The position numbers and the translations under genes are program-made. Under the pieces are notes generated by a model. It searched no databases, was not told the DNA's origin, and was given only the letters and a program-made list of their open reading frames with translations. From positions 1 through 43,267 of IMG/VR virus record IMGVR_UViG_3300044712_001783: a DNA stretch of 43,267 nucleotides; one strand, 5' to 3'. Shown one piece after another: positions 2,621 through 42,691 of this stretch (positions are counted from its first letter, which is position 1; each line of letters begins with the position of its first letter). This stretch comes from a virus.

Positions 2621-3015
2621 TGGACATTAGGAAATGGGGTGCTGATGCTGGCGATATCTGGGACCTAAGCCTTAATGATGAACCTGGTCAGAGAGGGCTG
2701 GTCCTGCCAGGCTCCGAGATACAGGTCCTGGATGTTGGTCTGTATTTGAACGAGATAGAAGGGCATGAATATTGGAAGGAACATGAATGCACACAGTTCC
2801 ATTTGTTCGTGCGCGGCATGGAAGTGTGGGTGCTGGAGTTTCGTGGTCGAACAAGTGTGTATAGCGATCCTAGCTACAAAGTGGCATTCGGCGCTCAGCC
2901 TGAATTCTCAGTGATGCTCTCGATTGACGAAGCGCACGAGCTATTGCTGAAAACTTTGCCGCCAATTGAGTATGTGCGCGTAACGCCCGAAGAGTGGGCT
3001 GCAAGGAGGTCGTGA
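2620..3015 (+). CDS. Hypothetical soluble protein, 131 aa
   Basis: The ATG 2620 overlaps the previous stop. The product is acidic and mixed alpha/beta with no membrane segment or signal and many aromatic residues. It starts MDIRKWGADAGD and ends in TPEEWAARRS. I do not recognise a family. Its last codons contain AAGGAGG (3003-3009), the ribosome site of the next gene, so the two genes are coupled. Confidence 0.55.
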   Translation: MDIRKWGADAGDIWDLSLNDEPGQRGLVLPGSEIQVLDVGLYLNEIEGHEYWKEHECTQFHLFVRGMEVWVLEFRGRTSVYSDPSYKVAFGAQPEFSVMLSIDEAHELLLKTLPPIEYVRVTPEEWAARRS

Positions 3016-3881
3016 TGTTTGACTCTTGGAGTGAAGGTCCGCGGGATTGGAAGTGGATTGTTCCTGGCGTGCTGGGGATCATGCTGTGCCTGGTGGTCTA
3101 TCAATGTTGGATGATCGGCACGGATGGCTTTCTGTTGGTTGCATTGGCTCTGGCGTGTGTGGCTTGCATCTTCTTTCTTTCGGCGTTGACGAACTATATC
3201 TGGCTGGTGAAGAGACGCAGCGAAGAGCTTTATCGCGAGCATATGGAAGCGTTGAACGCCACCCCATTGACGAAGTTGGCAGATGCCATGAAGCAGATGC
3301 ACCCCGAGGCTGTGCGTGTGTTGGATAAGTTCGGCATTCGCACTATGTGGGGCGTGGATGTTGGGAAAACGTTGGGCGAGCGGGATTGGGTGCTGCTGGG
3401 AACAGACGTGCCTGTGCGCTTTGGGTTCATCGAGTATGTGCTGAACAAGAGTGGCAAAGCTCTGTATCCTGCCTACCGATTCGCGGAGGGCAGCAAGAAG
3501 TGGGACCCGGATGGCGTCACGTTGGACCGAGATCAGCATAAGGCATTTGAGAAGTGGATGTTTGCCCGCACTATGGTCACTCGTTCGCATGGCGATTACA
3601 AGCCTGCTGAGTTCATCCCGCCTTTCACTCCCAAGACGATCATGGAATTGATGGGCTTTACTGGGGAGCAGGAGCTTTATCGACCGGATGATGAGCGGGA
3701 GGTGAAGCAGCTTCCGACTGAAAGCGTGAAGCGGGAATCCGTGGGGCATCCCGCAGGGGGATCAAATGTGGCGAAGGCGGAGCGTCCTGAACCGGATTTG
3801 ACGGAGGAGGAGCTGGCGGCTAGTCGGGCTGAGATGGAGTTTTATGCAAGTAAGTTTGTGGATGGCAAGGTGCCTTCGTGA
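3015..3881 (+). CDS. Two-helix membrane protein with large cytoplasmic domain, 288 aa
   Basis: ATG 3015 is preceded by a strong AAGGAGG; the same frame opens earlier, but only inside the previous gene. Two hydrophobic helices (about 14-31 and 38-60) are followed by a roughly 225-residue soluble domain that would face the cytoplasm by the positive-inside rule (KRR after helix 2). The C-terminal 60 residues are polar and Pro/Glu-rich, probably disordered. No known domain recognised. It is the last gene before the partition pair. Confidence 0.6.
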   Translation: MFDSWSEGPRDWKWIVPGVLGIMLCLVVYQCWMIGTDGFLLVALALACVACIFFLSALTNYIWLVKRRSEELYREHMEALNATPLTKLADAMKQMHPEAVRVLDKFGIRTMWGVDVGKTLGERDWVLLGTDVPVRFGFIEYVLNKSGKALYPAYRFAEGSKKWDPDGVTLDRDQHKAFEKWMFARTMVTRSHGDYKPAEFIPPFTPKTIMELMGFTGEQELYRPDDEREVKQLPTESVKRESVGHPAGGSNVAKAERPEPDLTEEELAASRAEMEFYASKFVDGKVPS

Positions 3882-3891
3882 AGGTGAGAAG

Positions 3892-3926
3892 GTTCAGAAG
3901 TTCATAAGTTCAAAGGTTTCATAAAA
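3892..3926. promoter_or_regulatory. Tandem GTTCANNN repeats upstream of parM-like gene (candidate parC)
   Basis: Three contiguous 8-bp units, GTTCAGAA (3892), GTTCATAA (3900) and GTTCAAAG (3908), are followed by a variant beginning GTTTCATAA (3916). In type II plasmid partition the centromere parC consists of short direct repeats just upstream of parM, bound by ParR, which also represses the operon. Position and periodicity fit, but similar filler repeats occur elsewhere in this window, so the centromere role is an inference. Confidence 0.4.
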
Positions 3927-3938
3927 GGAGTATCTATC

Positions 3939-4916
3939 ATGGCTATCAATTTTGGTTTCGATATGGGAATGGGTGCGCTGAAGTTGTGGAGCGCAGCAGG
4001 CGGCTGGCAGTTAGTGAGCCAGGTGGCGAGCAACGGTCATGGTCATCTTTCGGATGGCATCCTGGGATTGAAGAATCGCAAGCGCCCGATGTTGATCAGC
4101 GGTGATTTCGGTTCGTTCTACGTGGGAGATGGGGCGCATGAGCATGGGCGACCGGTGGAGAACCTGGATTTCGACCGCTTGACAGGCGCACCAGAGATGC
4201 GCGTGCTGCTGTATGCAGCGCTGGCGCAATATCAAAGTGAATATGGTCCGTTCGATGAGGCGCTTTCGTTGATGGTCGGTCTTCCGCTCCAGATGATGAC
4301 TGGTGAGATGGCAAAGGACTATCAGAAGGGTGTGAAAAGCTGGTTGAAGGGTACACATACATTTGAAGTGGATGGCATCACGCACACGGTGGAAGTGGAA
4401 GATGTGAAGCAGACATCCCAGCCGGTGGGAGCGTTGTTTGACTATGTTCTCGATCATCGCGGTCATATGATCGGCGAGCGCGGATCTGCGCTGCTGGATG
4501 AAGTGGGCGTGATCAGCGTTGGATTCAACACAGTGGAGTTGCTGGTGGTGAAGGAACGCGGTGCGCTGGAACGCTTCACCCGTGGCAATACGCTGGGTGT
4601 GCGGCGCTTGTTGGAACTGATGAACCGTGAAGGTCTCTTCAGCCTGGGCGAGTTGGATTCGAAAGTGAGATCTGGTGGGATGCGTGCAGAGATGCGCCAG
4701 GCAATGCCGGTGTGGAGCCGCGAGGTGAACGGTGAGATCGAGAAGGTGTGGGGCGGCAGCCATCGTCGTTTTGCGAAGGTGTTGATCGTGGGCGGTGGTG
4801 CTCTTCTGCTCCAGGATGCGTTAACGCAACAGTTCGGTCATAAGGCTTGGGTTCCTGAAGATGCGGTGCTCTCGATCGCTCGTGGGCTGTGGAAGCTGAG
4901 CGTGATGAAGAGGTGA
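3939..4916 (+). CDS. ParM/Alp-type actin-like segregation ATPase
   Basis: The 325-aa product has the actin-fold signature order: phosphate-1 loop FGFDMGMGALKLW (5-17), a VGLPLQM segment (113-119) typical of ParM/StbA-like proteins, a phosphate-2 region VGVISVGFNTVEL (189-201), and the adenosine motif VLIVGGGALLL (281-291). The usual Asp of the phosphate-2 DxG is replaced (SVG), which is odd. ParM-family filaments push plasmid copies apart when captured by ParR bound to parC. AAGGAG at 3926-3931 supports ATG 3939. A small putative ParR follows at once. It implies segregation of a low-copy extrachromosomal form of the phage. Confidence 0.75.
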   Translation: MAINFGFDMGMGALKLWSAAGGWQLVSQVASNGHGHLSDGILGLKNRKRPMLISGDFGSFYVGDGAHEHGRPVENLDFDRLTGAPEMRVLLYAALAQYQSEYGPFDEALSLMVGLPLQMMTGEMAKDYQKGVKSWLKGTHTFEVDGITHTVEVEDVKQTSQPVGALFDYVLDHRGHMIGERGSALLDEVGVISVGFNTVELLVVKERGALERFTRGNTLGVRRLLELMNREGLFSLGELDSKVRSGGMRAEMRQAMPVWSREVNGEIEKVWGGSHRRFAKVLIVGGGALLLQDALTQQFGHKAWVPEDAVLSIARGLWKLSVMKR

Positions 4917-4917
4917 T

Positions 4918-5169
4918 ATGAGCAGACAAAAAGACCTGATCCGTTCACGGCGCATCCGGTTGGAAGGGTGTCTGAAGCCTGGCATCGATCCTGAGATCGA
5001 TAGGGTGCTGGCTTGGCTGGACTCCCTTCCACCGCGGACCAAGTTCCCTTCTGTGATCGCACGTTTGATCGCAGGCGGCTTGATCCAATCAATCAATGTC
5101 CAGGATGATGAGCTGGCGATGCAGGTGCAAGCGGCTCAGGACATCATGGCGAACTTTGTAGTGGAGTAA
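4918..5169 (+). CDS. Putative ParR-like partner of the actin-like protein, 83 aa
   Basis: ATG 4918 lies two bases after the actin gene's stop, with GAGGTGA as ribosome site. The N-terminus is basic (SRQKDLIRSRRIRL), as expected for the beta strand of a ribbon-helix-helix DNA-binding protein, and is followed by two predicted helices (PEIDRVLAWLDSL; FPSVIARLIAGG) and an acidic C-terminal tail that could contact the filament. Small genes directly after parM/alp genes usually encode ParR/AlpR. Size and position carry the call; the fold is inferred. Confidence 0.6.
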   Translation: MSRQKDLIRSRRIRLEGCLKPGIDPEIDRVLAWLDSLPPRTKFPSVIARLIAGGLIQSINVQDDELAMQVQAAQDIMANFVVE

Positions 5170-5214
5170 TTCTTAACCGTCAACAATAGCACTCCCATTC
5201 TTAACCGTAAAGAA
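5170..5214. repeat. Two direct repeats TTCTTAACCGT(C/A)AA
   Basis: TTCTTAACCGTCAACAA at 5170-5186 and TTCTTAACCGTAAAGAA at 5198-5214 are spaced 28 bp apart immediately after the putative parR stop. They could be an alternative ParR-binding or operator site. The rest of the gap to 5335 is purine-rich filler (GCAGAAGGCAGAA type) with no other signal seen. Confidence 0.4.
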
Positions 5215-5335
5215 TTTTTGCCTGCGCTCGGACAGGTGCAGGAAAGCGACACATGCGGGAGGTGGGGAAGGGGAGGAGTGCGAAGAAGAGTGCGGATGGC
5301 AGAAGGCAGAATGAGGAATGAAAGGAGTTTTGAAA

Positions 5336-5582: not shown

Positions 5583-6218
5583 ATGAAAGAGAGACCTATT
5601 CTTTTTTCTGCTGAGATGGTGTTGGCGATCTTGGATGATCGCAAGACACAGACCAGGCGAGTTGTAAAACTTGTAAATGAATATGGCTTGCCTCTCCACT
5701 ATTCTCGTATCGTTGATCATCCATGCCCCTATGGAAAAGTTGGTGATCGGCTTTGGGTGAGAGAGACATTCCAACTCACAGAACCGGATGGCTCAGTTGG
5801 TGATGAATGGATAGGTGACACAGCTATAGAGTTGGATGGCATTCCTAAAGAGAGACCAGAAAGCCTTGGGTATTGGATCTATTTGCATTACCGCGCTGAC
5901 AATCCAGAAATGTGCAACTGGTGGCGACCTTCGATCTTCATGCCACGTTGGGCAAGCCGAATCACGTTGGAAATTGTTGGTGTGCGAGTAGAACGATTAC
6001 AGATGATCTCGCGTGATGATGCAAAAGCGGAAGGCATGAGCAATGTTTGGAAATGGGATCGAGAGAGAAATAAAAAACATCCAGAACATTTCAATCGTGG
6101 GCAATACAACCCTTATAAAGCCAACTATAGTGTGCTTTGGGACGAGATCAATGGCAAGGGTGCCTGGGATTTGAATCCTTGGGTGTGGGTGATCGAGTTC
6201 AAGCGGGTGGAGGCATAG
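5583..6218 (+). CDS. ASCH-like phage protein, 211 aa
   Basis: The start MKERPILFSAEMVLAIL (5583) is preceded by GAGGGTGAG. The opening followed by DDRKTQTRRVV is characteristic of a widespread phage protein family related to ASCH (PUA-like) RNA-binding domains; the later GDRLWVRETF and RVERLQMISRDDAKAEG segments fit the same family. ASCH proteins bind RNA, and a few are nucleases or hydrolases acting on modified nucleosides. The role in phages is unproven. It lies in a run of nucleic-acid-related early genes. Confidence 0.7.
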   Translation: MKERPILFSAEMVLAILDDRKTQTRRVVKLVNEYGLPLHYSRIVDHPCPYGKVGDRLWVRETFQLTEPDGSVGDEWIGDTAIELDGIPKERPESLGYWIYLHYRADNPEMCNWWRPSIFMPRWASRITLEIVGVRVERLQMISRDDAKAEGMSNVWKWDRERNKKHPEHFNRGQYNPYKANYSVLWDEINGKGAWDLNPWVWVIEFKRVEA

Positions 6219-9766: not shown

Positions 9767-10465
9767 ATGGCAAACGGACGTTTGGATAAACCTGTTTTTC
9801 AGTTGCCCATGCCTCTCTCTGGCTTTGATGATGTCATCCAGCCTACTGATGAGAAGATGACCAGCGAAGCTGCATTGGCGGCTCTTTCCGCGTGGCGAGT
9901 GAAGGAACCACAATTCATTGATGATGCAGACGGCAAGAAAATGCAACTGGGCGAGCGTGAAGTGGCACCACGCTGGATGGATCTGTTCAAACGTTTGGTG
10001 GAAGTCGGTTGGAAATGGCGCGTGGCTGTTTATATTGCCTGGGCAGCACAACCAAAGAAGTACCGTCAACCTGCCACACAGGAAGAGCTTGCGATTCAAT
10101 GTCTTGGATTGACATCTGATCGAGCTATAGCTACATGGCGCAAGAACAATGAAAGCATTGATGAAACAATATCCGTTTTACAGGGTGCCATTATCTTTGA
10201 TGCGCTGCCTGATGCGATGAATGCGATGGTGGAAGTTGCCAGTGAAGCCGATTACAAGGGACACCAGGACCGCAAGTTGATGTTCGAGATGGCTGGTATT
10301 TATACACCGTCATCGAAGATCACAGCGGAGATGGCAAAGAAACTGGTTAACAGTAATCCAGACGACCTGGAATCGCTGAGTGATGAAGAACTCCGCAAGC
10401 TGGAAGGGAACATCAACACAGCGATCACCAATAAACACAAGAAGGAAGGGGAAGAGGACGCCTGA
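9767..10465 (+). CDS. Terminase small subunit-like protein, 232 aa
   Basis: It lies directly before terL with a one-base stop/start overlap. Residues about 84-125 (WRVAVYIAWAAQP, then PATQEELAIQCLG and RAIATWRKNN) look like an HTH of the phBC6A51-type small terminases, which recognise the packaging site. The C-terminal acidic/basic helical tail (from about 195) would contact the large subunit. The call rests on the HTH pattern and position. Confidence 0.65.
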   Translation: MANGRLDKPVFQLPMPLSGFDDVIQPTDEKMTSEAALAALSAWRVKEPQFIDDADGKKMQLGEREVAPRWMDLFKRLVEVGWKWRVAVYIAWAAQPKKYRQPATQEELAIQCLGLTSDRAIATWRKNNESIDETISVLQGAIIFDALPDAMNAMVEVASEADYKGHQDRKLMFEMAGIYTPSSKITAEMAKKLVNSNPDDLESLSDEELRKLEGNINTAITNKHKKEGEEDA

Positions 10466-12057
10466 TGGTTGCCCCGACTGTGAATCGTAGTGATCTGGCG
10501 AAGGCAGAACGCGCACGGCGTGAGCTGGCTCGTCGCCATTTAATCGATTACAGCCGCTATGTGGCTCCCTGGTATGAGCCTGCAAAGCATCACATCTATC
10601 TGGCTGGAAAACTGGAGAAGGTGAAACTCTTCATCGAGACCAAAGGTGTACAGGGCATCGGGCGTTTGATCGTGTGTGAGCCGCCTCAATATGGCAAGAC
10701 CGAACAGACCAGCCGTTTATTCCCTTCGTGGGTGCTGGGTGATCTACCCGATACGCGCATCATCCTGACATCCTACGGCGCAGATCTGGCAACTGAAAAC
10801 AGCCGCATCACTCGAAACTATGTAGGCAGTGATGCGTATGCCAACATCTTCGGGGCACGCTCCGCAGTGGATGAACCTGTGGAGCTGAGCATGGAAAGCC
10901 GCAGCGTGGTCTCGTGGAATTTGAAGGATCATCGCGGGTCCGTGTTCGCTTCTGGTGTGGGCGGTGGTATCACCGGTCGCCCGGCAAACCTGGTCGTGAT
11001 CGATGACCCGTTCAAGAGCCGTGAAGATGCGGAGAGCGAGGTCTATCGCAAAAAGGTGATGAGCTGGTACCGGTCGGTGGTGTATCCCCGTGTAGCGAAC
11101 ACTCCGGGCGCGGCGATCATCATCATGCACACACGCTGGGATCAAGAAGATCTCGTTGGTCAATTATTGACCCAGATGGTGAGCGATGCGGAAGCCGATC
11201 AATGGGATGTTGTTTTTCTTCCCGCGATTGCTTTGGAAGAAGATCAATACCCAAAAACGGAAGAAGAATTTCGCGAGAATTTGCTGCGCGGAATTTATAT
11301 CCCTAAAGGTGGTGATCCACTCGGACGCAAGCCAGGCGAAGCATTATGGGCGGAGCGTTCGAGCGTGCAGAAGATTCTGCGCACCAAAGCCAACATGCTG
11401 GATTATGACTTCGAAGCGCTCTTCCAGCAGATGCCCCGCATGGCAGAGGGTGAATTCTTTGATGATAAGGATTTTGAGATCATCGAGAAAGCTCCCGAAG
11501 GTTTGCAGTGGTATCGCTATGTGGATTTAGCGCTGGGTGAATCAAAAACCAGCGATAACAATTCTACGATTGCAGGCGCGATTAACGAGAGAACTGGCGA
11601 CCTGATCCTGCGTGATCGCATCAAGGTACGCGAGCTGAAAGAATTCCTGCCACGAGTGCGCACGGCGATGCTTTCTGACGATGAGCGCAATACTGAATGG
11701 GGCTTTGAGGATGTGGCGTTTCAAAAGTTAGTCATCCAACAATTCATGGCGGATAAGACTTTGATGAAAGTGCGGATGCGTGGCGTGAAGCCTTTGGGCG
11801 ATAAGGTGGAGCGTGCGCGTCCGTGGCAGCTTCGAGCGAAACAAGGACACGTCAAGCTGGTGCGTGGTCCGTGGAATTTGGACTTTATCCGCGAGGTGAC
11901 TTCGTTCCCTAAAGGTCGCCATGATGATGATGTGGATACCGTGAGCGGCGATGTGCAGATGATCGCCGAAGACGGTGGCGCAAACAAGACCGCTACGAGC
12001 GAGTCCATCGTTGTGAGTGCTGATGAATTATTTATGGAGCCATCATGGAACCAGTAA
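10465..12057 (+). CDS. terL: Terminase large subunit
   Basis: The 530-aa packaging motor has Walker A-like CEPPQYGKTE (71-80), an adenine/coupling segment ILTSYGADLA (100-109) and Walker B LVVIDDP (176-182). The RNase H-like nuclease domain starts at YVDLALGESK (352-361) and ends near HDDDVDTVSG in the C-terminal 40 residues. Terminase cleaves concatemeric DNA and pumps it into proheads through the portal. The end overlaps the following small gene. PPQYGKT instead of the more common PPRHGKS is a conservative variant. Confidence 0.93.
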   Translation: MVAPTVNRSDLAKAERARRELARRHLIDYSRYVAPWYEPAKHHIYLAGKLEKVKLFIETKGVQGIGRLIVCEPPQYGKTEQTSRLFPSWVLGDLPDTRIILTSYGADLATENSRITRNYVGSDAYANIFGARSAVDEPVELSMESRSVVSWNLKDHRGSVFASGVGGGITGRPANLVVIDDPFKSREDAESEVYRKKVMSWYRSVVYPRVANTPGAAIIIMHTRWDQEDLVGQLLTQMVSDAEADQWDVVFLPAIALEEDQYPKTEEEFRENLLRGIYIPKGGDPLGRKPGEALWAERSSVQKILRTKANMLDYDFEALFQQMPRMAEGEFFDDKDFEIIEKAPEGLQWYRYVDLALGESKTSDNNSTIAGAINERTGDLILRDRIKVRELKEFLPRVRTAMLSDDERNTEWGFEDVAFQKLVIQQFMADKTLMKVRMRGVKPLGDKVERARPWQLRAKQGHVKLVRGPWNLDFIREVTSFPKGRHDDDVDTVSGDVQMIAEDGGANKTATSESIVVSADELFMEPSWNQ

Positions 12058-17329: not shown

Positions 17330-18607
17330 ATGGCGACTTTACGGCAACGAATCAATGCTTTTTTCAATCCACCCTCAGCTGAGGGGGAGAGCACGGCTGT
17401 GCAAACCGCAGGCGCTGAGTCGGTGGTCAATGAGTATGAAAAGCTCAAAGCGGACCGCGATCGCATGGCGATCATCAAAACATGCAGGCGCATGTACAAG
17501 GAAGATCCGCGTGTGAAGAAAGCCTTGAAGATGTATTCCACCGATCTGGTCAAGGCGGGTTTCATCGTCAAGACCAAGAACGAACAGGCAAAGCAGATCG
17601 CCAAAGATCTTCAGGCGCGGCTGGGACTGAATAAGAAATTGCAGGATGTCACACGTCTCTCGGGACGTGATGGTGATTCGTTCTACGAAGTGGTGATCGA
17701 TGACCAGCTCAACATTACCGAACTTTCGCGCAAGCCCACCCTGCGCATGAGACGCAACAGCAATGGTGCGGATAAGTTCGTGGACCCGATGAAAGCGTTC
17801 TACATGATCGATGAGAATTCCATGGGCACGGGCATCCCGGAGAATGCGGTCTGGTTCGCTCAGTGGCAGATGATCCATGCGCGTTGGGACCATGATGACG
17901 AGTCCCGTTATGGCAACCCGATGTGGGCGAGCGCCACCGGAGCCTTCAAGCGTGTGACCGAGGGCGAGACAGATCTGGCAGTGCGTCGCAAGGTGCGTGC
18001 GGGCATGAGGCTTTTGCATGTGGTCGAAGGCAATGAGAGCGATGTGAAAGCCTATAAGGAATTGAACAAGCCTGCATTGCAAAACCCCACCGCAGCGCAC
18101 ATCGATCTATTCTCGAATAAAGCGGCATCCGTCACAGCCATCCAGGGCGATGCGCATCTTAACGAGATCAATGACATCCTGCACCAGGTGGCGACCATGT
18201 TCGCGGCTTCAGATGTTCCGATGGAATTGGTTGCGTATGGTGAAGGGCTGAACCGTGACATCCTGGGCGAGAAAAAAGAAGAGTATGACGAATCGCTCGA
18301 TGATGGGCGCGAATGGCTCACAGATGAATTCATCAAGCCTCTGCTCGAACGTCAGTGGCTGCTGATGGGCATCCTGCCTGCCAGCGTTCAATACGAGATC
18401 ATCTGGCGCACGGCGAAACCACTCACCCCCGCAGATCTGCGAGACCTGGCAGATGCCATCTCCCGCCTGCGCTTGTTGGGTGTGAAGGATGAGATCTTGC
18501 AGCAGCTCATGGCGCTCTTCATCCGCAATGTGGATGATGACCTGATGGATATGGATGGTTTCAGCGTGGATCAGTTCGCACAGAATTTGAAAGGGATCAG
18601 CGTTTGA
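17330..18607 (+). CDS. Portal protein, 425 aa
   Basis: ATG 17330 follows CCAAGGATAG. Residues 25-120 contain the wing/clip part (RRMYKEDPRVKKALKMYSTDLVKAGF, read from about 45). The GDSFYEVVIDD and PMKAFYMIDEN regions are typical of portals, as are the long helix about 290-330 and the crown region at the end. The dodecameric portal is the DNA entry channel and docks TerL. Its place after capsid and neck genes, rather than directly after terL, is unusual. The stop overlaps the next ATG. Confidence 0.75.
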   Translation: MATLRQRINAFFNPPSAEGESTAVQTAGAESVVNEYEKLKADRDRMAIIKTCRRMYKEDPRVKKALKMYSTDLVKAGFIVKTKNEQAKQIAKDLQARLGLNKKLQDVTRLSGRDGDSFYEVVIDDQLNITELSRKPTLRMRRNSNGADKFVDPMKAFYMIDENSMGTGIPENAVWFAQWQMIHARWDHDDESRYGNPMWASATGAFKRVTEGETDLAVRRKVRAGMRLLHVVEGNESDVKAYKELNKPALQNPTAAHIDLFSNKAASVTAIQGDAHLNEINDILHQVATMFAASDVPMELVAYGEGLNRDILGEKKEEYDESLDDGREWLTDEFIKPLLERQWLLMGILPASVQYEIIWRTAKPLTPADLRDLADAISRLRLLGVKDEILQQLMALFIRNVDDDLMDMDGFSVDQFAQNLKGISV

Positions 18608-29559: not shown

Positions 29560-29589
29560 CAAAAACCCGCTCTCATGAGCGGGTTTTTG
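29560..29589. terminator. Bidirectional intrinsic terminator between late operon and serine recombinase
   Basis: Stem CAAAAACCCGCTC (29560-29572) / GAGCGGGTTTTTG (29577-29589) with a TCAT loop. The A run and T run let it end both the rightward late transcript and the leftward recombinase transcript. The recombinase stop lies inside it. Confidence 0.9.
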
Positions 29590-31213
29590 TCACTGTGACA
29601 ACTGCCGGATAACTGAACAGTTGCCTATAGAGAGGTGCCCCCATGGGGGTGCGATTCATAGGCAACAGCTCCACGGGGGCTGATTCAAAAGGGGGCGAGC
29701 CTGTGAAGGGATAATAATATTCGACCAGGCAAAAGATCTTATCTCCAACACGCTCCGCTCGCACTTTGTGGATCAGTTCCTTCAGGTACTGGCGTTTGTC
29801 TTCGTAGGGGGCTTCTTTGATGCGTTGGATCAAGGTTTTGGAAACGGTGACAATTTGATCGTAGGTGAGACGCGGAACCGCCTGGACAGGAATATCCAGT
29901 TCTTCGAGTTCCTTCTTGATCTCAGCTTGGCGTGCTTCCGCATCCCGCAGGCTTTTGGCGATGGCGGTGCTCAGCCCCATCTCACCGATCGCTGCGGTGT
30001 AATTTGCGATCGCTCTGGCAACGGAGGCGCGTTCGTCGTGCAATTCCTTGCGGCGTTCGGTTCGTCTTGCTTCGCCATGCGTTTGATTTTCGATCGCGAT
30101 CTCCTGAATGGCGGCGATGTTGTCAGGTGCAAGGATATGGTTTTCAATGGTATCGATCACTAGCTCTTCGAGCCTACGGCGGTTGACTCTGCCAGCATCG
30201 CAGCCAGCGTGGCGCTTGGATCGTGAGCAGCGATAACCTTCATCGCGATTTTCGACTTTGTTGCGGATGGTGGTGTTGCCATTCATGGGCGCTTCACAAC
30301 GGGCGCAGATGCAATACCCGCTCAGCAGATAGGCAGAGTTGGTGCGCTTAGGATGGCTTTCTTTGAAAATGGTTTTGGCGTGATCTTCGGAGCGCTTTTG
30401 CACGGCGTTCCAGGTTTCCATATCGATCAACGCTTCGCAGTAATTCTCAACAACAAGATCCCCGAATTCGAGAATACCGATGAACAGTTTATTGCGGAAG
30501 AAGGTGGTGTATGAATTCGTGGAACCGAAGATGCGTGTGGCTTTGTGTATCTCTGCCACCGGTGCTCCACTAGCTTTCATGCTCCATGCTTTGAGCACAC
30601 GCTTGCGCAGCTTCGGATCGGGCACCCAGCGGTGATTGGTGCGGGTTTCGCCTTTGCGCGGATTGATGGTCTTGATCGGTTCCCGCTTAAATCCCCGCGG
30701 CGGTGTGCCTGGCATAGCTCCCTGCATCACCAGCGCCCGCAGACCATCACGCGCATCGATGGCAGTTTGCTCACTGCGCTCTTCATTCGCCATATCGATG
30801 AACATCTCCGCGAAGATGGCAAACTTGCCTTCGGGGATTTGATCGGTGAGCGAATGGATGGTGATGCCATTGCGCCTGAGACGTTGTTTGTAGTACGTGG
30901 AATCTTCGAGATTGCGACCGAAGCGGGAGAAGCTCCACAACAGCAAGCCATGCGGATTGTGTTCCCCGTTATCTGATTCTTTGATCATGCGTAGGAAGTC
31001 TTCACGCCCCGCAGTGGATGTGCCACTCTTGGCTTCATCTTTATAGACGTGGATCAGCTCCAGCTCGTGTAGTTTGCAATAGCTCTCGATCACTTCAAGC
31101 TGCCGGCTGATCGAGCGGTCCTGATTGTCTCCGCCGCTGTCGCGCAGATATGCCCAGACCGTGGAACCGGGCGGAAGTGTGGAAGGAGGAGGAACGTGGT
31201 TTGAAGAAGACAA
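29573..31213 (-). CDS. Large serine recombinase (phage integrase), 546 aa
   Basis: The N-terminal resolvase domain has YLRDSGGDNQ (catalytic S26, R24), then an EIFDM-like AEMFIDMANEERS helix and WSFSRFGRN. The recombinase domain follows (about 165-290), then a zinc ribbon (CICARC at about 317-322 and YRCSRSKRHAGC) and a coiled coil (about 395-460), in the standard order of large serine integrases. They join attP and attB without high-energy cofactors. The start is an unusual TTG (31213-31211) without a clear ribosome site, so the true start is uncertain. The 3' end contains a nested palindrome (29620-29666). Confidence 0.92.
   Translation of the reverse strand: MSSSNHVPPPSTLPPGSTVWAYLRDSGGDNQDRSISRQLEVIESYCKLHELELIHVYKDEAKSGTSTAGREDFLRMIKESDNGEHNPHGLLLWSFSRFGRNLEDSTYYKQRLRRNGITIHSLTDQIPEGKFAIFAEMFIDMANEERSEQTAIDARDGLRALVMQGAMPGTPPRGFKREPIKTINPRKGETRTNHRWVPDPKLRKRVLKAWSMKASGAPVAEIHKATRIFGSTNSYTTFFRNKLFIGILEFGDLVVENYCEALIDMETWNAVQKRSEDHAKTIFKESHPKRTNSAYLLSGYCICARCEAPMNGNTTIRNKVENRDEGYRCSRSKRHAGCDAGRVNRRRLEELVIDTIENHILAPDNIAAIQEIAIENQTHGEARRTERRKELHDERASVARAIANYTAAIGEMGLSTAIAKSLRDAEARQAEIKKELEELDIPVQAVPRLTYDQIVTVSKTLIQRIKEAPYEDKRQYLKELIHKVRAERVGDKIFCLVEYYYPFTGSPPFESAPVELLPMNRTPMGAPLYRQLFSYPAVVTVTKTRS
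29620..29666. repeat. Nested inverted repeat in recombinase 3' end
   Basis: Outer arms GTTGCCTAT (29620-29628) and ATAGGCAAC (29658-29666) enclose an inner perfect palindrome CCCCCATGGGGG (29638-29649). The whole is 47 bp, the size of an att site for serine integrases, but its centre (AT) is symmetric, which argues against a directional crossover site. Other possibilities are an RNA hairpin or a recombinase-binding accessory site. Confidence 0.5.
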
Positions 31214-36469: not shown

Positions 36470-37393
36470 ATGAAAACTCAAACAGCACCGCTTTCTCTTA
36501 CCGTCCCTGCAACTTGCGAACCTGCAACCTGGAACCTGGAACTTTCCAACCATCTTGCAAAGATTTATCGCAACACCCACACTCGCGAGACCGCAGCACA
36601 ACACATCCGCGTCTTCGTGCTCTGGTACCAGGCAACCTTCCACCAGGAATTCGCCCCTCAGCTCCTCACCAACTATGACCTGCACCTATACCGTGCCTGG
36701 TCTCTCGATCGCGAGAAGGTCAAAGCCTCCACATGGAACTCTCGCCTGTGGGCGCTCACCATCCTATGCAACTGGATCGGAGATCCGTCCTTGCTCAAAG
36801 ACATCGAGCAAAAAGCGCAGGTCCGCGGCTCCACTAAACACCGCTCCCTAACCAGCGACGAATATCACCGCCTGGTCCATGCGCTCGAGCAGAACACAAA
36901 GCGCACCGTCACCCAGTTCGAACACATCAACGCCGTCCGCGATTGGGCATCCGTCATGCTCATGCTGCATGGTCTGCGTGTGGAAGAAGTCACCCTGGTA
37001 GATCTGGATGATGTCACCCTCAACGAACGCAGTGGGGAGGTGCTTGTACGAAACGGAAAGGGCAGCAAGGAGCGGACCGTCCCATTGAACCTGATCGCCC
37101 GCAACGCCCTCCGCCTCTGGCTGGATGTGCGAGCAGGTACCGATATTAAAAGCTTGATCGGCGTCTCCGATCGCACCCTCCAACGCAATGTCGCAGCCCT
37201 GGGCGCTCAGATCGGCGTCCCTGATCTCACCCCCCACTGGGCACGCTACACCTTCGCCAAACGCCTGGAGCGCAAAGAGATCCCGCTGGAGACCATCCGC
37301 GATCTGCTAGGGCACTCCAGCATCGAACAAACCAAACGCTACCTGAGATCTTCACTCGAAGAACTCCAGTCCGCTGTGGAAGAGGTGATGTAG
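36470..37393 (+). CDS. Tyrosine recombinase, Xer-like size, 307 aa
   Basis: Catalytic residues are complete: R170 (HGLRVEEV), K197 (NGKGSK), H256 and R259 (TPHWARYTF), H282 (LGHSSI) and Y291 (TKRYLR). An N-terminal SAM-like core-binding domain covers about 25-110. The N-terminal 25 residues are encoded by filler repeats (ACCTGCAACCTGGAACCTGG), so the native start may be later. The size and lack of arm-binding domain resemble XerC/D rather than lambda integrase. It could resolve multimers or integrate at a dif-like site; such a site lies two genes downstream (39158-39185). Confidence 0.85.
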   Translation: MKTQTAPLSLTVPATCEPATWNLELSNHLAKIYRNTHTRETAAQHIRVFVLWYQATFHQEFAPQLLTNYDLHLYRAWSLDREKVKASTWNSRLWALTILCNWIGDPSLLKDIEQKAQVRGSTKHRSLTSDEYHRLVHALEQNTKRTVTQFEHINAVRDWASVMLMLHGLRVEEVTLVDLDDVTLNERSGEVLVRNGKGSKERTVPLNLIARNALRLWLDVRAGTDIKSLIGVSDRTLQRNVAALGAQIGVPDLTPHWARYTFAKRLERKEIPLETIRDLLGHSSIEQTKRYLRSSLEELQSAVEEVM

Positions 37394-39369: not shown

Positions 39370-42300
39370 ATGGATAACTTCGTAGCTGAATTGAAGAAGC
39401 GAGTACGGATCGAAGATGTGATCAGCGAGACCGTGGAACTGGAACGAAACCGCGGTCGAGGCTTCACGCGGGGGGCAAAGAAGGGCGTTGGTGAGCATGG
39501 TCTGGTTGTGGACCTTGATGGGCAACGCTTTGCGTGGAATGGGAACGCTGACTATGGCAATGGTCAGTACAACGATGTCATTACGTGGGTGATGATCCGT
39601 GACAGAGTTGATTTTCGGCGGGCGGTGGAGGTGTTGGCTCGCAAAGTAGGGATGGAGCTTCCGAAGTGGAGTGAAGAGCAGCAAGTTCAATTCGCGGCGG
39701 TGCGTGCGAAGGAAGAATTGCTTGATATCGCTCAGCGCATCTTCGCAGAGTGGCTTTGGAAAGATGAGAAAGCCCTGGCGTATGTGCGCGGGCGTGGCTG
39801 GAGTGATGAGACGATCAAGAAAGCGGGTCTTGGCTTCACCGGTTGGGGCACCCCAGCCGAGTATGAACAGATGAAGAACGCTTTTGCTACTGCTGGGGAT
39901 CTTCATTCAGCGGCGGCGGTTGCGGTGCTGGGGCTGCGGGGTGGTGTGGGAGCCTGGTGTGAGAAGCGAAACATCGAAGCGAAGGCACGCTGGCTCGAAC
40001 GCGATGCCATCCCTTCGATGATGGGATGGGGCGAGACCGTTGGGTTGATCTATCCGTGCATTTACTTTGGGCGCACTACTTATTTGTATCGCAGGCATCT
40101 GAAACTCAACGAAGACAAAAGCGCTCTCATTGGTTCAGATGAACCGAAGAGCTACAACCTGCCTGTGGAACTGGTGGGCAATCGCCAGTTGTATTTCAAC
40201 CATGTTTATTCGCCGCGAGCTGAGCGTGTGGTGTTCGTCGAAGGTCCTGCGGATGCTGTGACGCTGGGGCAGTGGGGCGTGGATGCGGTCTCGATAGCGG
40301 GAACAGCCTGGGGTGATCATGAAGCGGAGCTGCGTCGCTTGAAGGATGCGAAGGCTGGTGACAAGCCTGCTCACGAGGCGCTTTATGTGGCGCTCGATTC
40401 CGATCAAGCCGGTCGTTCTGCGATGTTTGGCAAGGATGGCGAGTTCCCGCTGGTGAATATCTTCGGGGCGATGTGCCGCGTGATCTATTGGAAAGAGAAG
40501 GACGCGAACGACTGGTTGCAGGCAATGATCCGTGAGGGGAAGAGCGCGGAAGAGCAAACACAGGCGGCACTGGATGCGATCGGTGGAGCAAAGCCGATGG
40601 CAATCGAGGTGGCGAAGTGGGCAGGCTCGCGGACGGATGATCATGCCAAGACCAAGGCGTTGAAACGTGCCTTCGAAGTGATCGCGCAGATGGGTGATGA
40701 GAACACGATCATGCGCTATGCGTCGGACTTCCTGAGCGCATTCAAGCCTTTGGGCGAGACCGTGAAGGGCATCCGCGAATTTTCGCGGCTGTTGAAGGCG
40801 GCACAGGGCAAGGGTGAAGGGGATGAAAAGAAAGAGGAAGTGATCTACACGTTCGGCGGTCGGATCGGGGATTGGCTGGTGGAATATTGCTATGACCCAG
40901 AGACGCGCAAGGCTCGCTTTGCCTATCGAGATCCGAATGGAAAGGTGGATGAAGCGGACGATCTGGTGATCGATGGCATTCGCTACAAACCGATGCCACC
41001 TGATGACAAGATGATCCGCATTGGCGCCATTCTTTTCCCGAGTGCGCTGGCTCGTAAGAGTGATGGGACTGTTGACCGCAAGAGCACGGCGGAATTGACC
41101 GAGGTGATCGCGTTCAAGTATCGCCAAAACTATTTGTTCCCCCATGCAAAGTGGTCTTACATGGCTGCGTATTGGACGCTGGGCACGTGGCTTTATGACA
41201 ATTTCAATCAGCTCGTTTATTTGCGCATGGTGGGCGATGCGGGAGCCGGGAAGAGTGCGTTGCTGAACCTGCTTGGACAGGTGTGTTATCGCTCGATCAA
41301 GATGAGCGGTGCTGATTCGGAGAGCACGTTCTTCCGCGTAGTGGATGAATATCGTGGGACGGTGATGTTCGAAGAGGCAGATCTGCCCGAAGGATCTGGA
41401 GCGGATAACCCGATCGTGAAGTTCGTGAACCTGGGTGCGATGCGCGGAAACTACATCTACCGCATGGAGGAATATATCAAACCAGATGGAACGAAGGGGT
41501 GGAGACCAAGCCCGTTCGAGACCTACTGCCCGAAGATGTTCGCAATGCGTGGTGACTTCATGGATAACGCTGTGGCTTCGAGATCCATCTCGATCAAGTT
41601 GACCGCGGCGGAGCCTTCTGCGCTGATGGATAAGGGCATCGAGTTGCAGATGAGCGAGAAGACGATGAAGGAACTGCGCTACCTGCGGAATTTGTGCCTG
41701 GTGTGGCGCATGTATGAATTCAGCTTTCAGGAACGGAAGCTGAGCTGGGATCTGGTCGATTTTGAGATCCCGGCACGCTTCAACCAGGTGACGATCCCGA
41801 TGAAGAGCCTGGCTATGAACCTGGATGGTTCGCGGGATGAGAAGTTTCTGGCACAGGTGACGAACCTGCTGCGGGAACATTATCAGGAGATCGTGGGAGA
41901 CAACTCCACCACCTGGGAAGCCCGTGTGGCTGAGGCAGCGTGGAAGATGTACATCTACCCGGATCTGCGGGCGCGTTGTGACATCCATTCGAACGGTTCC
42001 ATCTTCATGAAAATTGGCGACGTGACCGCGATCGCCAACAATATCGCCGATGAAATGAACGAACAGGGCGCAGATCTGCGTGTGAAAACTGAAGTGACCA
42101 GTGAAGAGGGGCAGGGCAAGAACAAGAAAAAGAGCTATGAACTGGGCGCTCAGAAGGTGGGGAAGATCATCCGTGACACGTTCCAGCTGCACACTCCACC
42201 GCGGCGGGGGAACGGTGTGTATTTCGAGTGGGATGACGAGAAGATGATGAGCATTGGGAAGAAGTACGGGGCGCTGCCTCCGATGGAAAAGATCGAGAAG

Positions 42301-42378
42301 GCACGCCAGGAGCTGGCTGCACTGCGGGCAAAGGTGGCGAAACCCTTGCAGATCGGTCTGGAGGGTGCGGATGACTAG
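39370..42378 (+). CDS. Primase-helicase, 1002 aa
   Basis: N-terminal residues 10-100 match the DnaG-type N-terminal domain in outline (YNDVITWVMIRDRV, then FRRAVEVLARKVGMELP) but without zinc-binding Cys. The Toprim domain has VEGPADA (290-296) and DSDQAGR (343-349), the catalytic Glu and DxD of primases. The helicase part has Walker A GDAGAGKS (622-629) and Walker B VMFEEAD (665-671), then a winged-helix-like end. It would prime and unwind DNA at the phage origin. The start ATG 39370 has only GGTAAAGGCTC upstream. A diverged truncated homologue opens the window. Confidence 0.9.
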   Translation: MDNFVAELKKRVRIEDVISETVELERNRGRGFTRGAKKGVGEHGLVVDLDGQRFAWNGNADYGNGQYNDVITWVMIRDRVDFRRAVEVLARKVGMELPKWSEEQQVQFAAVRAKEELLDIAQRIFAEWLWKDEKALAYVRGRGWSDETIKKAGLGFTGWGTPAEYEQMKNAFATAGDLHSAAAVAVLGLRGGVGAWCEKRNIEAKARWLERDAIPSMMGWGETVGLIYPCIYFGRTTYLYRRHLKLNEDKSALIGSDEPKSYNLPVELVGNRQLYFNHVYSPRAERVVFVEGPADAVTLGQWGVDAVSIAGTAWGDHEAELRRLKDAKAGDKPAHEALYVALDSDQAGRSAMFGKDGEFPLVNIFGAMCRVIYWKEKDANDWLQAMIREGKSAEEQTQAALDAIGGAKPMAIEVAKWAGSRTDDHAKTKALKRAFEVIAQMGDENTIMRYASDFLSAFKPLGETVKGIREFSRLLKAAQGKGEGDEKKEEVIYTFGGRIGDWLVEYCYDPETRKARFAYRDPNGKVDEADDLVIDGIRYKPMPPDDKMIRIGAILFPSALARKSDGTVDRKSTAELTEVIAFKYRQNYLFPHAKWSYMAAYWTLGTWLYDNFNQLVYLRMVGDAGAGKSALLNLLGQVCYRSIKMSGADSESTFFRVVDEYRGTVMFEEADLPEGSGADNPIVKFVNLGAMRGNYIYRMEEYIKPDGTKGWRPSPFETYCPKMFAMRGDFMDNAVASRSISIKLTAAEPSALMDKGIELQMSEKTMKELRYLRNLCLVWRMYEFSFQERKLSWDLVDFEIPARFNQVTIPMKSLAMNLDGSRDEKFLAQVTNLLREHYQEIVGDNSTTWEARVAEAAWKMYIYPDLRARCDIHSNGSIFMKIGDVTAIANNIADEMNEQGADLRVKTEVTSEEGQGKNKKKSYELGAQKVGKIIRDTFQLHTPPRRGNGVYFEWDDEKMMSIGKKYGALPPMEKIEKARQELAALRAKVAKPLQIGLEGADD

Positions 42379-42691
42379 TGAACTAGTGAAGAGGAATGGG
42401 TCTCTGCTGCTGCAAGACATTATGTTTTGTGGGGCGGGCGTGTTTTGGTGTTCACCTGTTCACTACGGGCTGTTTTTTGCGATTTTTTCGGTTTTTTGCG
42501 CGTTTTTGGTCATTTACTTCACTACTTACTACATGAATATATATGAAGTAGTGAGTAAGTATGAACAACATGGTTGGAGTATGTGTCAATTTGCCATGTA
42601 TTTAGTGAACAAGTGAACACGCGATTTTGGGTATGTTCATTCATGTTCACTAAAGGTACTTTCGTGCGCGTAAGCAATTATGGAGGAAGGT
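42379..42691. other. Repeat-rich region after primase-helicase, candidate origin
   Basis: No convincing gene. GTTCAC at 42450 and 42458 (8 bp apart), inverted GTGAAC at 42605 and 42613 (8 bp apart), GTTCAT at 42635 and GTTCAC at 42645. An imperfect inverted repeat built on TCACTACTT / AAGTAGTGA lies around 42519-42556, flanking the AT-rich ATGAATATATATGAA. The T-run segment 42471-42505 precedes it. Iterons plus an AT-rich part beside a replication gene suggest an origin. Confidence 0.5.

Follow-up and report, generated by a model that had tools for sequence, protein, structure and literature searches.

A probable actin-type segregation cassette in the genome of a tailed phage that carries a serine integrase

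Does the presence of actin-type plasmid partition genes in a phage genome imply that the phage is inherited as a plasmid? This question is raised by the IMG/VR virus record IMGVR_UViG_3300044712_001783, whose 43,267 bases (the whole stretch of DNA analyzed here, hereafter the window) contain a gene for a ParM/Alp-like actin-type ATPase followed by a small gene for a putative ParR-like adaptor. A preliminary description of the window had interpreted this pair as an actin-type partition operon and the element as a probable phage-plasmid with an extrachromosomal lysogenic state. Phage structural genes and plasmid-type maintenance genes do stand together in the window, which encodes a tailed-phage gene set with terminase, head protease, primase, and proteins resembling those of the portal and of head morphogenesis. 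Two recombinases, a large one of the serine type and a Xer-like one of the tyrosine type, are encoded as well. The operon is supported by sequence, fold, and synteny, while the serine integrase, its attP site, and the existence of integrated relatives mean that extrachromosomal lysogeny is not indicated. On balance, we consider it probable that the locus is a three-part actin-type segregation or positioning cassette for the circular form of a temperate, integrating tailed phage from Anaerolineae.

Viral contigs, searched once by sequence and once by profile, yielded 23 relatives of the ParM protein (L002-L006, L008-L025), and the phage record Rctr41k (KX853513), derived from a DAMO/AAA enrichment culture, encodes a ParM 54-55% identical to that of the window. 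A first scan of genome contigs returned no ParM relatives and a second, with a profile, returned six, every one in a contig whose title names Anaerolineae, Anaerolineales or Chloroflexi; of 298 genomes sampled from the class Anaerolineae, 26 held a relative at E <= 1e-20. Because the relatives in genome contigs sit in this group, the host is most likely a member of the Anaerolineae (Chloroflexota). The comparisons below employ a first set of 31 ParM loci (the window and L002-L031) and a second set of 14 new loci from a later scan, which yielded 15, one distant locus being omitted.

The parM/alp gene (3939..4916, plus strand) encodes a 325-aa protein matching Pfam ALP_N (5e-12) and MreB-like_C (9e-8) as well as PHROG 691 'partition protein' (8e-30). 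A ParM profile compared against the PDB matched pCBH ParM (1.8e-11), Alp12 (4e-6), and CorM (2e-5), and pSK41 ParM was also matched. An AlphaFold model derived from 29 sequences had a mean pLDDT of 88.0 and a pTM of 0.88, and its top Foldseek matches were of the ParM, Ta0583, and CorM types. In VIA-align comparisons the model scored Z 32.8 with Dh-cParM1 (rmsd 2.6, 310 aligned), 28.6 with pCBH ParM, and 28.5 with CorM, compared to 24.1 for AlfA and ~23 for the MreB and Hsp70 rows. By sequence profile and modeled fold, the product is an actin-family ATPase nearer to ParM/Alp than to Hsp70 or MreB, and the Hsp70-type fold, part of the alternative named earlier, scores clearly lower.

The phosphate and adenosine motifs noted in the preliminary description were in part borne out. 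In the phosphate-1 motif, D8-x-G-x-G-x-x-K15, residues D8, G10, G12, and K15 are present in 28/28 rows with residues there, and the adenosine motif GGG (G285-G287) is present in 29/29 family members. The phosphate-2 motif departs from the DxGxxTxD pattern and reads S-[VI]-G-F-x-T-x-E, with S193 in place of the aspartate in 28 of 29 members and threonine in the remaining one. Serine was also found at this position in 13 of the 14 new loci, the fourteenth giving no match to the pattern. The residue is Asp in pCBH ParM and CorM and in the SPO1, API480, Lactobacillus, and Halomonas proteins, and among distant Anaerolineae relatives it is Asp in L049, L050, and L056 and Asn or Gly in others, with many showing no pattern match. 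Within the sequences compared, the phosphate-2 serine is a mark of this ParM clade. We take position 193 to be equivalent to D170 of ParM, presumably the phosphate-2 aspartate of that protein, an assignment backed only by motif alignment to pCBH ParM. According to PMC5539076, mutation of an essential residue of ParM (D170A) stops filament dynamics while static filaments remain.

The adaptor gene (4918..5169, plus strand, 83 aa) starts two bases past the parM stop codon, and both open reading frames (ORFs) were confirmed as originally described. Position and synteny support the designation ParR-like. An adaptor-sized ORF (73-102 residues) lies 3' of ParM in 31/31 first-set loci, at a distance of <=316 nt in 28 and 489-673 nt in three (L006, L007, L014), and an adaptor-like ORF is found in 13 of the 14 new loci, the exception (L158) ending 152 bases past ParM; the criteria for recognizing these ORFs, applied partly by eye, were their position, their length, and the C-terminal tail. 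No Pfam match of the adaptor passed a curated cut-off, and PHROGs and NCBIfam yielded no match. Weak matches to VARLMGL (0.18) and UPF0352 yejL (0.005) were discarded, as were those to MobC_2 and DUF6703, each in 2 of 30 members of the adaptor family (best 0.002 and 0.0033, respectively). The structural model of the adaptor is weak (pLDDT 72.6), with helices predicted at residues 25-36, 42-52, and 63-80 and no strand modeled, and the segment preceding the helices is presumed to be the DNA-contacting strand of a ribbon-helix-helix (RHH) fold. The layout of the helices fits this fold, and the sequence pattern makes an RHH protein likely, if unproven. Phage-type and other adaptors do align to each other (A6 vs A5, 97%).

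Comparison of the adaptors revealed that the C-terminal tail is kept (e.g., DELxxQVxAAxDIMANFVVE) while the N-terminal part varies. Between L004 and L005, ParM is 94% identical and the adaptor N-terminal part 42%, and between L003 and L006 the corresponding values are 91% and 24%; the reverse case is provided by L006 and L009, with 80% identity in ParM and 91% in the adaptor N-terminal part. We read this pattern as the exchange of predicted DNA-binding heads on a fixed tail with a predicted role in filament binding.

The third part of the cassette is a candidate centromere site consisting of two copies of a ~19-bp quasi-palindrome on the plus strand, ATTCTTAACCGTCAACAAT (5169..5187) and ATTCTTAACCGTAAAGAAT (5197..5215), which lie 28 bp apart and have 0 and 1 mismatch to the family pattern, respectively. 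Across the window this pattern has 4 matches with <=3 mismatches, against 0.05 expected, and nothing besides these two copies with <=2. By inspection, a repeat pair, direct or inverted, follows the adaptor gene at the same place in 27 of 31 first-set loci. In a shuffle test, downstream pairs reached p<=0.05 in 37/44 loci (27/31 in the first set, 10/13 in the new set), with at least four of the 37 scores stemming from other repeats (L011, L014, L016, L145), compared to 9/41 loci for the region upstream of parM (7/29 and 2/12), where the sequences differ. Spacing is 27-28 bp in 17 of 18 direct pairs picked by eye and varies more in inverted pairs. The 47 sites picked by hand show stronger palindromy than their shuffled versions (0/5000 resampled means reach the observed mean), and with copies of this kind it would make no difference whether a pair is direct or inverted. 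Among the ten closest loci, with sites picked by eye and pairless loci omitted, the site follows the adaptor N-terminal part when distance in ParM is accounted for (partial r 0.62, p 0.0004).

These data point to the two quasi-palindromes after the adaptor gene as the likely DNA site of the cassette, rather than the GTTCA triple upstream of parM to which the preliminary description had drawn attention; the downstream region had figured there solely as a stretch for a binding test. The triple, three tandem GTTCANNN units at 3892..3912 on the plus strand, is a real repeat, occurring once in the window and in 0/100 shuffles. It is a poor centromere candidate because five close relatives (L002-L006, 86-89% identical) lack it in the 150 bases 5' of parM, and it was rejected as such; the pair test 5' of parM in the window gave p 0.24. 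Short low-complexity repeats with GTTCA, GCAGAAT, and TCAGC units also occur in intergenic spaces of the window (3892-3912, 42450-42462, 42635-42649) and of L002-L006. A dif-like site, previously cited without coordinates as a sign of an extrachromosomal state, was not substantiated. The best match had 5 mismatches in 22 arm positions, which is at chance level given that 17 of 40 Markov surrogates were equal or better; the search employed arms of the E. coli/B. subtilis type, with which a lineage-specific site could be missed.

Whether the phage integrates bears directly on the role of such a cassette. The integrase-type serine recombinase reported earlier was confirmed by Pfam and PHROG as a large, 546-aa protein (29573..31213, minus strand; Resolvase and Zn_ribbon_recom domains, PHROG 95 integrase 2e-73). 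Just inside the 3' end of its gene sits the attP dyad (29620..29666), uninterrupted in the window, with GTTGCCTATA and CATAGGCAAC arms around the core GGTGCCCCCATGG. This core corresponds to the 3' end, read antisense, of the tRNA-Glu gene as found in some Anaerolineae. With a strict tRNA pattern, 0/120 Anaerolineae genomes were matched, and with a relaxed one 4/41, three with tRNA-Glu and one with tRNA-Leu, so that a tRNA-Glu target fits only part of the class. The attP cores of this phage group look like tRNA 3' ends.

Two relatives were caught in the chromosome. In G326 (ParM 69% identical; L076, L077), the att halves lie at opposite ends of the record, and at the right end the phage arm runs into a complete tRNA-Asp gene; from the core outward, the flank aligns to Anaerolineae genomes, with 78-81% in the top five across ~235 bases that begin at the junction. 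In G427 (ParM 71%; L189), one junction is visible, an attR at which the phage arm at the right end runs into tRNA-Ala; this record starts beyond the expected place of the integrase. Their junction sequences identify both records as prophages in integrated form, and both contain the same cassette. The attP was uninterrupted in the other 16 of 18 parMR records with a judgeable att region, all with tRNA-like cores (weakest in G310 and G316): the window, G304, G306, G308, G310, G315, G316, G318, G319, G323, G324, G325, G430, G432, G436, and Rctr41k. No integrated copy of the window's own phage was found in a TerL search of 396 Anaerolineae genomes, 7 of which gave distant matches.

The presence of integrase and attP, together with the insertion of relatives at tRNA genes, makes it most likely that the cassette acts on the circle after its excision or fresh replication and that it is not the sole means of lysogenic inheritance. 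This reading builds on the observed fold family, gene pair, recurrent site pair, exchange of the adaptor N-terminal half, integrase with attP, and integrated relatives, and from these we infer DNA binding, filament formation, and timing in the life cycle. In the mechanism we propose, adaptor dimers would bind the two quasi-palindromic sites, 28 bp apart and directly 3' of their own gene, and the C-terminal helix of the adaptor, which persists through exchanges of the N-terminal half, would recruit the ATP-bound actin filament. The filament would then push or position copies of the circular phage genome, which may serve for positioning, for separation of sister circles, or for holding an episome until integration.

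Several observations weigh against this interpretation. The phosphate-2 aspartate is missing, so ATP-driven dynamics cannot be assumed. The adaptor gave no RHH match by profile or fold search, and hhalign probabilities were 3% and 0.7% in comparison with four adaptors taken from API480, SPO1, and two Lactobacillus plasmids. No pair was recognized in four of the 31 first-set loci (L011, L012, L024, L025), and two sites are few for a centromere, given the 24 repeats of prophage CGP3. In the ten closest loci, ParM also has its own effect on the site (0.45, p 0.017), and across the whole set of 27 loci where a pair was picked, the site is correlated more strongly with ParM (partial r 0.54) than with the adaptor N-terminal part (0.19, p 0.011); in the 19-locus phage set, the correlation between site and adaptor N-terminal part had a p of 0.07 and ParM distance correlated more strongly. 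Binding, filament formation, and segregation are predictions here. Finally, many parMR records lack a match to this integrase. The integrase query matched 14/25 records, 12 of them near full length (window included), and 3/14 more, leaving 11/25 and 11/14 unmatched. Some of the unmatched records are fragments and some may be other elements, and G429, initially a candidate for an integrase-less phage, proved to encode a divergent 516-aa serine recombinase; it has no recognized attP and stands outside the attP count. A tblastn search with three integrases found none in G428, G431, G433, G435, G437, G439, and G440, a search that left out the last 2,479 bases of G437 and 7,824 of G440 and did not extend to G434 and G438.

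That 16 of the 18 judged records are unintegrated weighs in the same direction and also fits the main rival reading, in which the element is a true phage-plasmid whose lysogen is normally a partitioned circular plasmid, with the serine integrase a secondary or decaying route and integration optional, as in ICE-like elements. Further observations keep this reading from outright rejection. G429 has an exact 123-base end repeat, as a circular molecule would have, though it is still integrase-bearing. The integrase query matched only at the C-terminal end beside an intact attP in Rctr41k (L125, 37684-38319), G306 (L126, ~17564-17842), and L116 (~5594-5887), and the first two thus keep attP with no more than a scrap of the integrase. 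Moreover, primase and Xer-like genes accompany the cassette in phages, and an Anaerolineae element that lacks the phage genes of the window has a comparable set next to its ParM-adaptor pair. In the window itself no exact end repeat of 10-400 bases was found, and gene-by-gene comparison of ten relatives, most of them covered in part, showed gene orders compatible with one circle broken at different points. However, an intact attP and permuted records are also expected from phage DNA in replication or from virions filled by headful packaging. Free DNA is thus frequent in the present data, in which plasmid prophages, replicating phage, and virions are not distinguishable. No replication initiator was found among the window proteins scanned, which comprise part of its ORFs. 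G326 and G427 are integrated at tRNA genes, which speaks against a purely extrachromosomal state at the level of the clade, as distinct from the window's own phage. While we regard plasmid lysogeny as a serious alternative, it is considerably less probable than a cassette serving the circular form of an integrating phage.

A role confined to the lytic stage, with filaments only positioning phage DNA for replication or packaging and having no part in inheritance, appears unlikely, although precedents by analogy exist. Virulent phages carry actin genes, and in SPO1, which is strictly virulent, the end of the actin-like gene overlaps a second gene, of 141 aa; because the pair also occurs in SPO1, an actin gene with a small partner does not by itself imply plasmid lysogeny. 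A lytic function has been proposed for AlpC of CGP3, and, according to the CGP3 work (PMC4446434, PMC5539076), loss of AlpA or AlpC lowers circular phage DNA ~two-fold and both genes are induced early. In the window, parMR lies on the same strand as the terminase and head genes and 5' of them. In contrast, related ParMs, several with an adaptor, are found in Anaerolineae contigs without the phage genes of the window, and five of these contigs have a Xer-like homologue (L027, L029, L098, L099, L102). In one of them, L029 (G004 contig C15, 133.6 kb), a ParM-adaptor pair is accompanied by FtsK-like, Xer-like, AAA_25, and primase genes, and G435, which has no match to the terminase of the window, has an exact 127-base end repeat. 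A role in phage production is less obvious in such contigs, though G435 is a virus record and a tail-sheath-like gene lies ~5 kb away in L029. Because ParM relatives occur in contigs that lack the window's phage genes, the cassette appears, from these gene neighborhoods, to circulate between phages and other elements.

It is still less probable that the site pair is an operator or promoter of the downstream gene block and the adaptor its transcription regulator, with the actin regulated rather than tethered to DNA: the pair does separate parR from the gene block that comes next, with another conserved element behind it, and RHH-type adaptors often act as regulators, but by eye the pair stays after parR while the next genes differ between loci, and the adaptor tail, not only the N-terminal part, is kept.

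Compared with known systems, the cassette resembles type II partition loci in that the motor gene precedes a small adaptor gene and repeats lie nearby, here as a downstream pair with predicted binding. In AlfA-AlfB-parN of pLS32, parN presumably lies downstream of alfB, a layout like that found here, although AlfA is a weaker structural match (Z 24.1) than Dh-cParM1 (Z 32.8). The actin fold, gene order, and small adaptor are common to ParM-ParR-parC of R1, pSK41, and pCBH; however, phosphate-2 is Asp in pCBH and Ser here, and parC of R1 is described in PMC4489591 as upstream of parMR, whereas the site here is downstream. According to the same source, srpMRC of the SXT/R391 integrative and conjugative elements (ICEs) is likewise a type II actin cassette in an integrating element, with a motor followed by a small adaptor without a recognizable domain, but srpC, with four 13-bp repeats, lies upstream of srpM, and the element is not a phage. 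The AlpA-AlpC-alpS system of CGP3 in Corynebacterium glutamicum (PMC4446434, PMC5539076), with srpMRC a close precedent for an actin cassette in an integrating element, also combines an actin, a small DNA adaptor, and repeats in an integrating phage with att sites. Its alpS consensus TTAAnnG resembles the TTAACCG core in the window, although with five fixed bases this may be coincidence. In CGP3 the repeats lie upstream in the promoter region and the reported gene order differs from motor-before-adaptor loci, whereas here the actin comes first and the repeats are two and downstream. The likeness is one of layout. Mycobacteriophages with parA/parB (PMC3585329) are temperate phages with a partition system and repeats, as here; their system is of the ParA/ParB type, and in phage First it takes the place of the integration cassette, while here both coexist.

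Among known relatives, Rctr41k shares with the window the ParM, an adaptor, a TTAACCGC site pair, attP, and Xer-like genes; its actin gene is annotated as hypothetical, and its integrase is a 211-aa C-terminal remnant without a Resolvase match. Literature searches on Rctr41k and on ParM in Anaerolineae prophages returned no papers, no description of this cassette was found among the papers listed for phage-plasmids, ParM, and integrases, and PMC5099504 has no mention of Rctr41, 41k, ParM, Chloroflexi or actin. What seems new here, judged from these comparisons, is the coexistence with a serine integrase in an Anaerolineae phage clade, the downstream two-site element, the exchangeable adaptor N-terminal part, and the phosphate-2 serine.

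Several neighboring features accompany the cassette. Directly after the site pair lies a conserved non-coding element (5216..5277, plus strand) recognized in an alignment of 19 chosen sequences, which contains TGCSTGCGCTCGGACAGG and GTGGGGRAGGGG and, as TGCSTGCGCTCGGACAGG .. GTGGGGGAGGGG, is found at the same place in L002-L010, L013-L018, L022, L023, and L030. In some relatives, a CTCCCCCAC arm is complementary to the G-rich part of this element. The element was rejected as a structured RNA, with no Rfam match for the window and five loci and no consensus fold (2 pairs). The gene just 5' of parM (2994..3881, plus strand, 295 aa) by eye has two hydrophobic stretches near its start and resembles a small membrane-anchored protein; Pfam and PHROG gave no match to its product. 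A homologue lies 5' of ParM in 11 of 24 loci (L002-L025); in some of these loci the available upstream sequence is short. The gene is possibly in the same operon as parM, and a partnership of its product with the filament is possible. Phage identity is marked by the terminase large subunit (10465..12057, plus strand; Pfam Terminase_6N, PHROG 38 2e-90), matched in 21/25 records. The Xer-like tyrosine recombinase (36470..37393, plus strand; Pfam Phage_integrase 7e-25, NCBIfam XerA/XerC/XerD below cut-off) has matches in 15/25 records, several of them weak. The primase-type replication protein (39370..42378, plus strand, 1002 aa) has CHC2 zinc finger and Toprim matches near cut-off, PHROG 6444 at 7e-21, and NCBIfam dnaG below cut-off. 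Matches to this gene and to the window gene at 17-1498 coincide at one place in G310, G316, and G324, as if the two window genes corresponded to a single gene in these relatives.

Tentatively, the locus may represent a clade of phages and other mobile elements of Anaerolineae whose actin, with Ser in place of Asp at phosphate-2, might form filaments that function with hardly any ordinary ATP hydrolysis or none, together with a centromere of two sites and interchangeable DNA-binding adaptor heads on a constant filament-binding tail. Its phages would be dual-mode, combining integration at tRNA genes with persistence as actively partitioned circles. More broadly, partition genes, often taken to signal plasmid lysogeny, can fail as such a sign, given that a complete integration module stands beside them in this genome and that relatives are integrated. 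With a near-constant actin, an exchanged adaptor N-terminal half, and a site that follows among the closest members, the family is a good system for the co-evolution of adaptor and centromere, and the missing phosphate-2 aspartate would test to what extent actin-driven DNA movement depends on hydrolysis.

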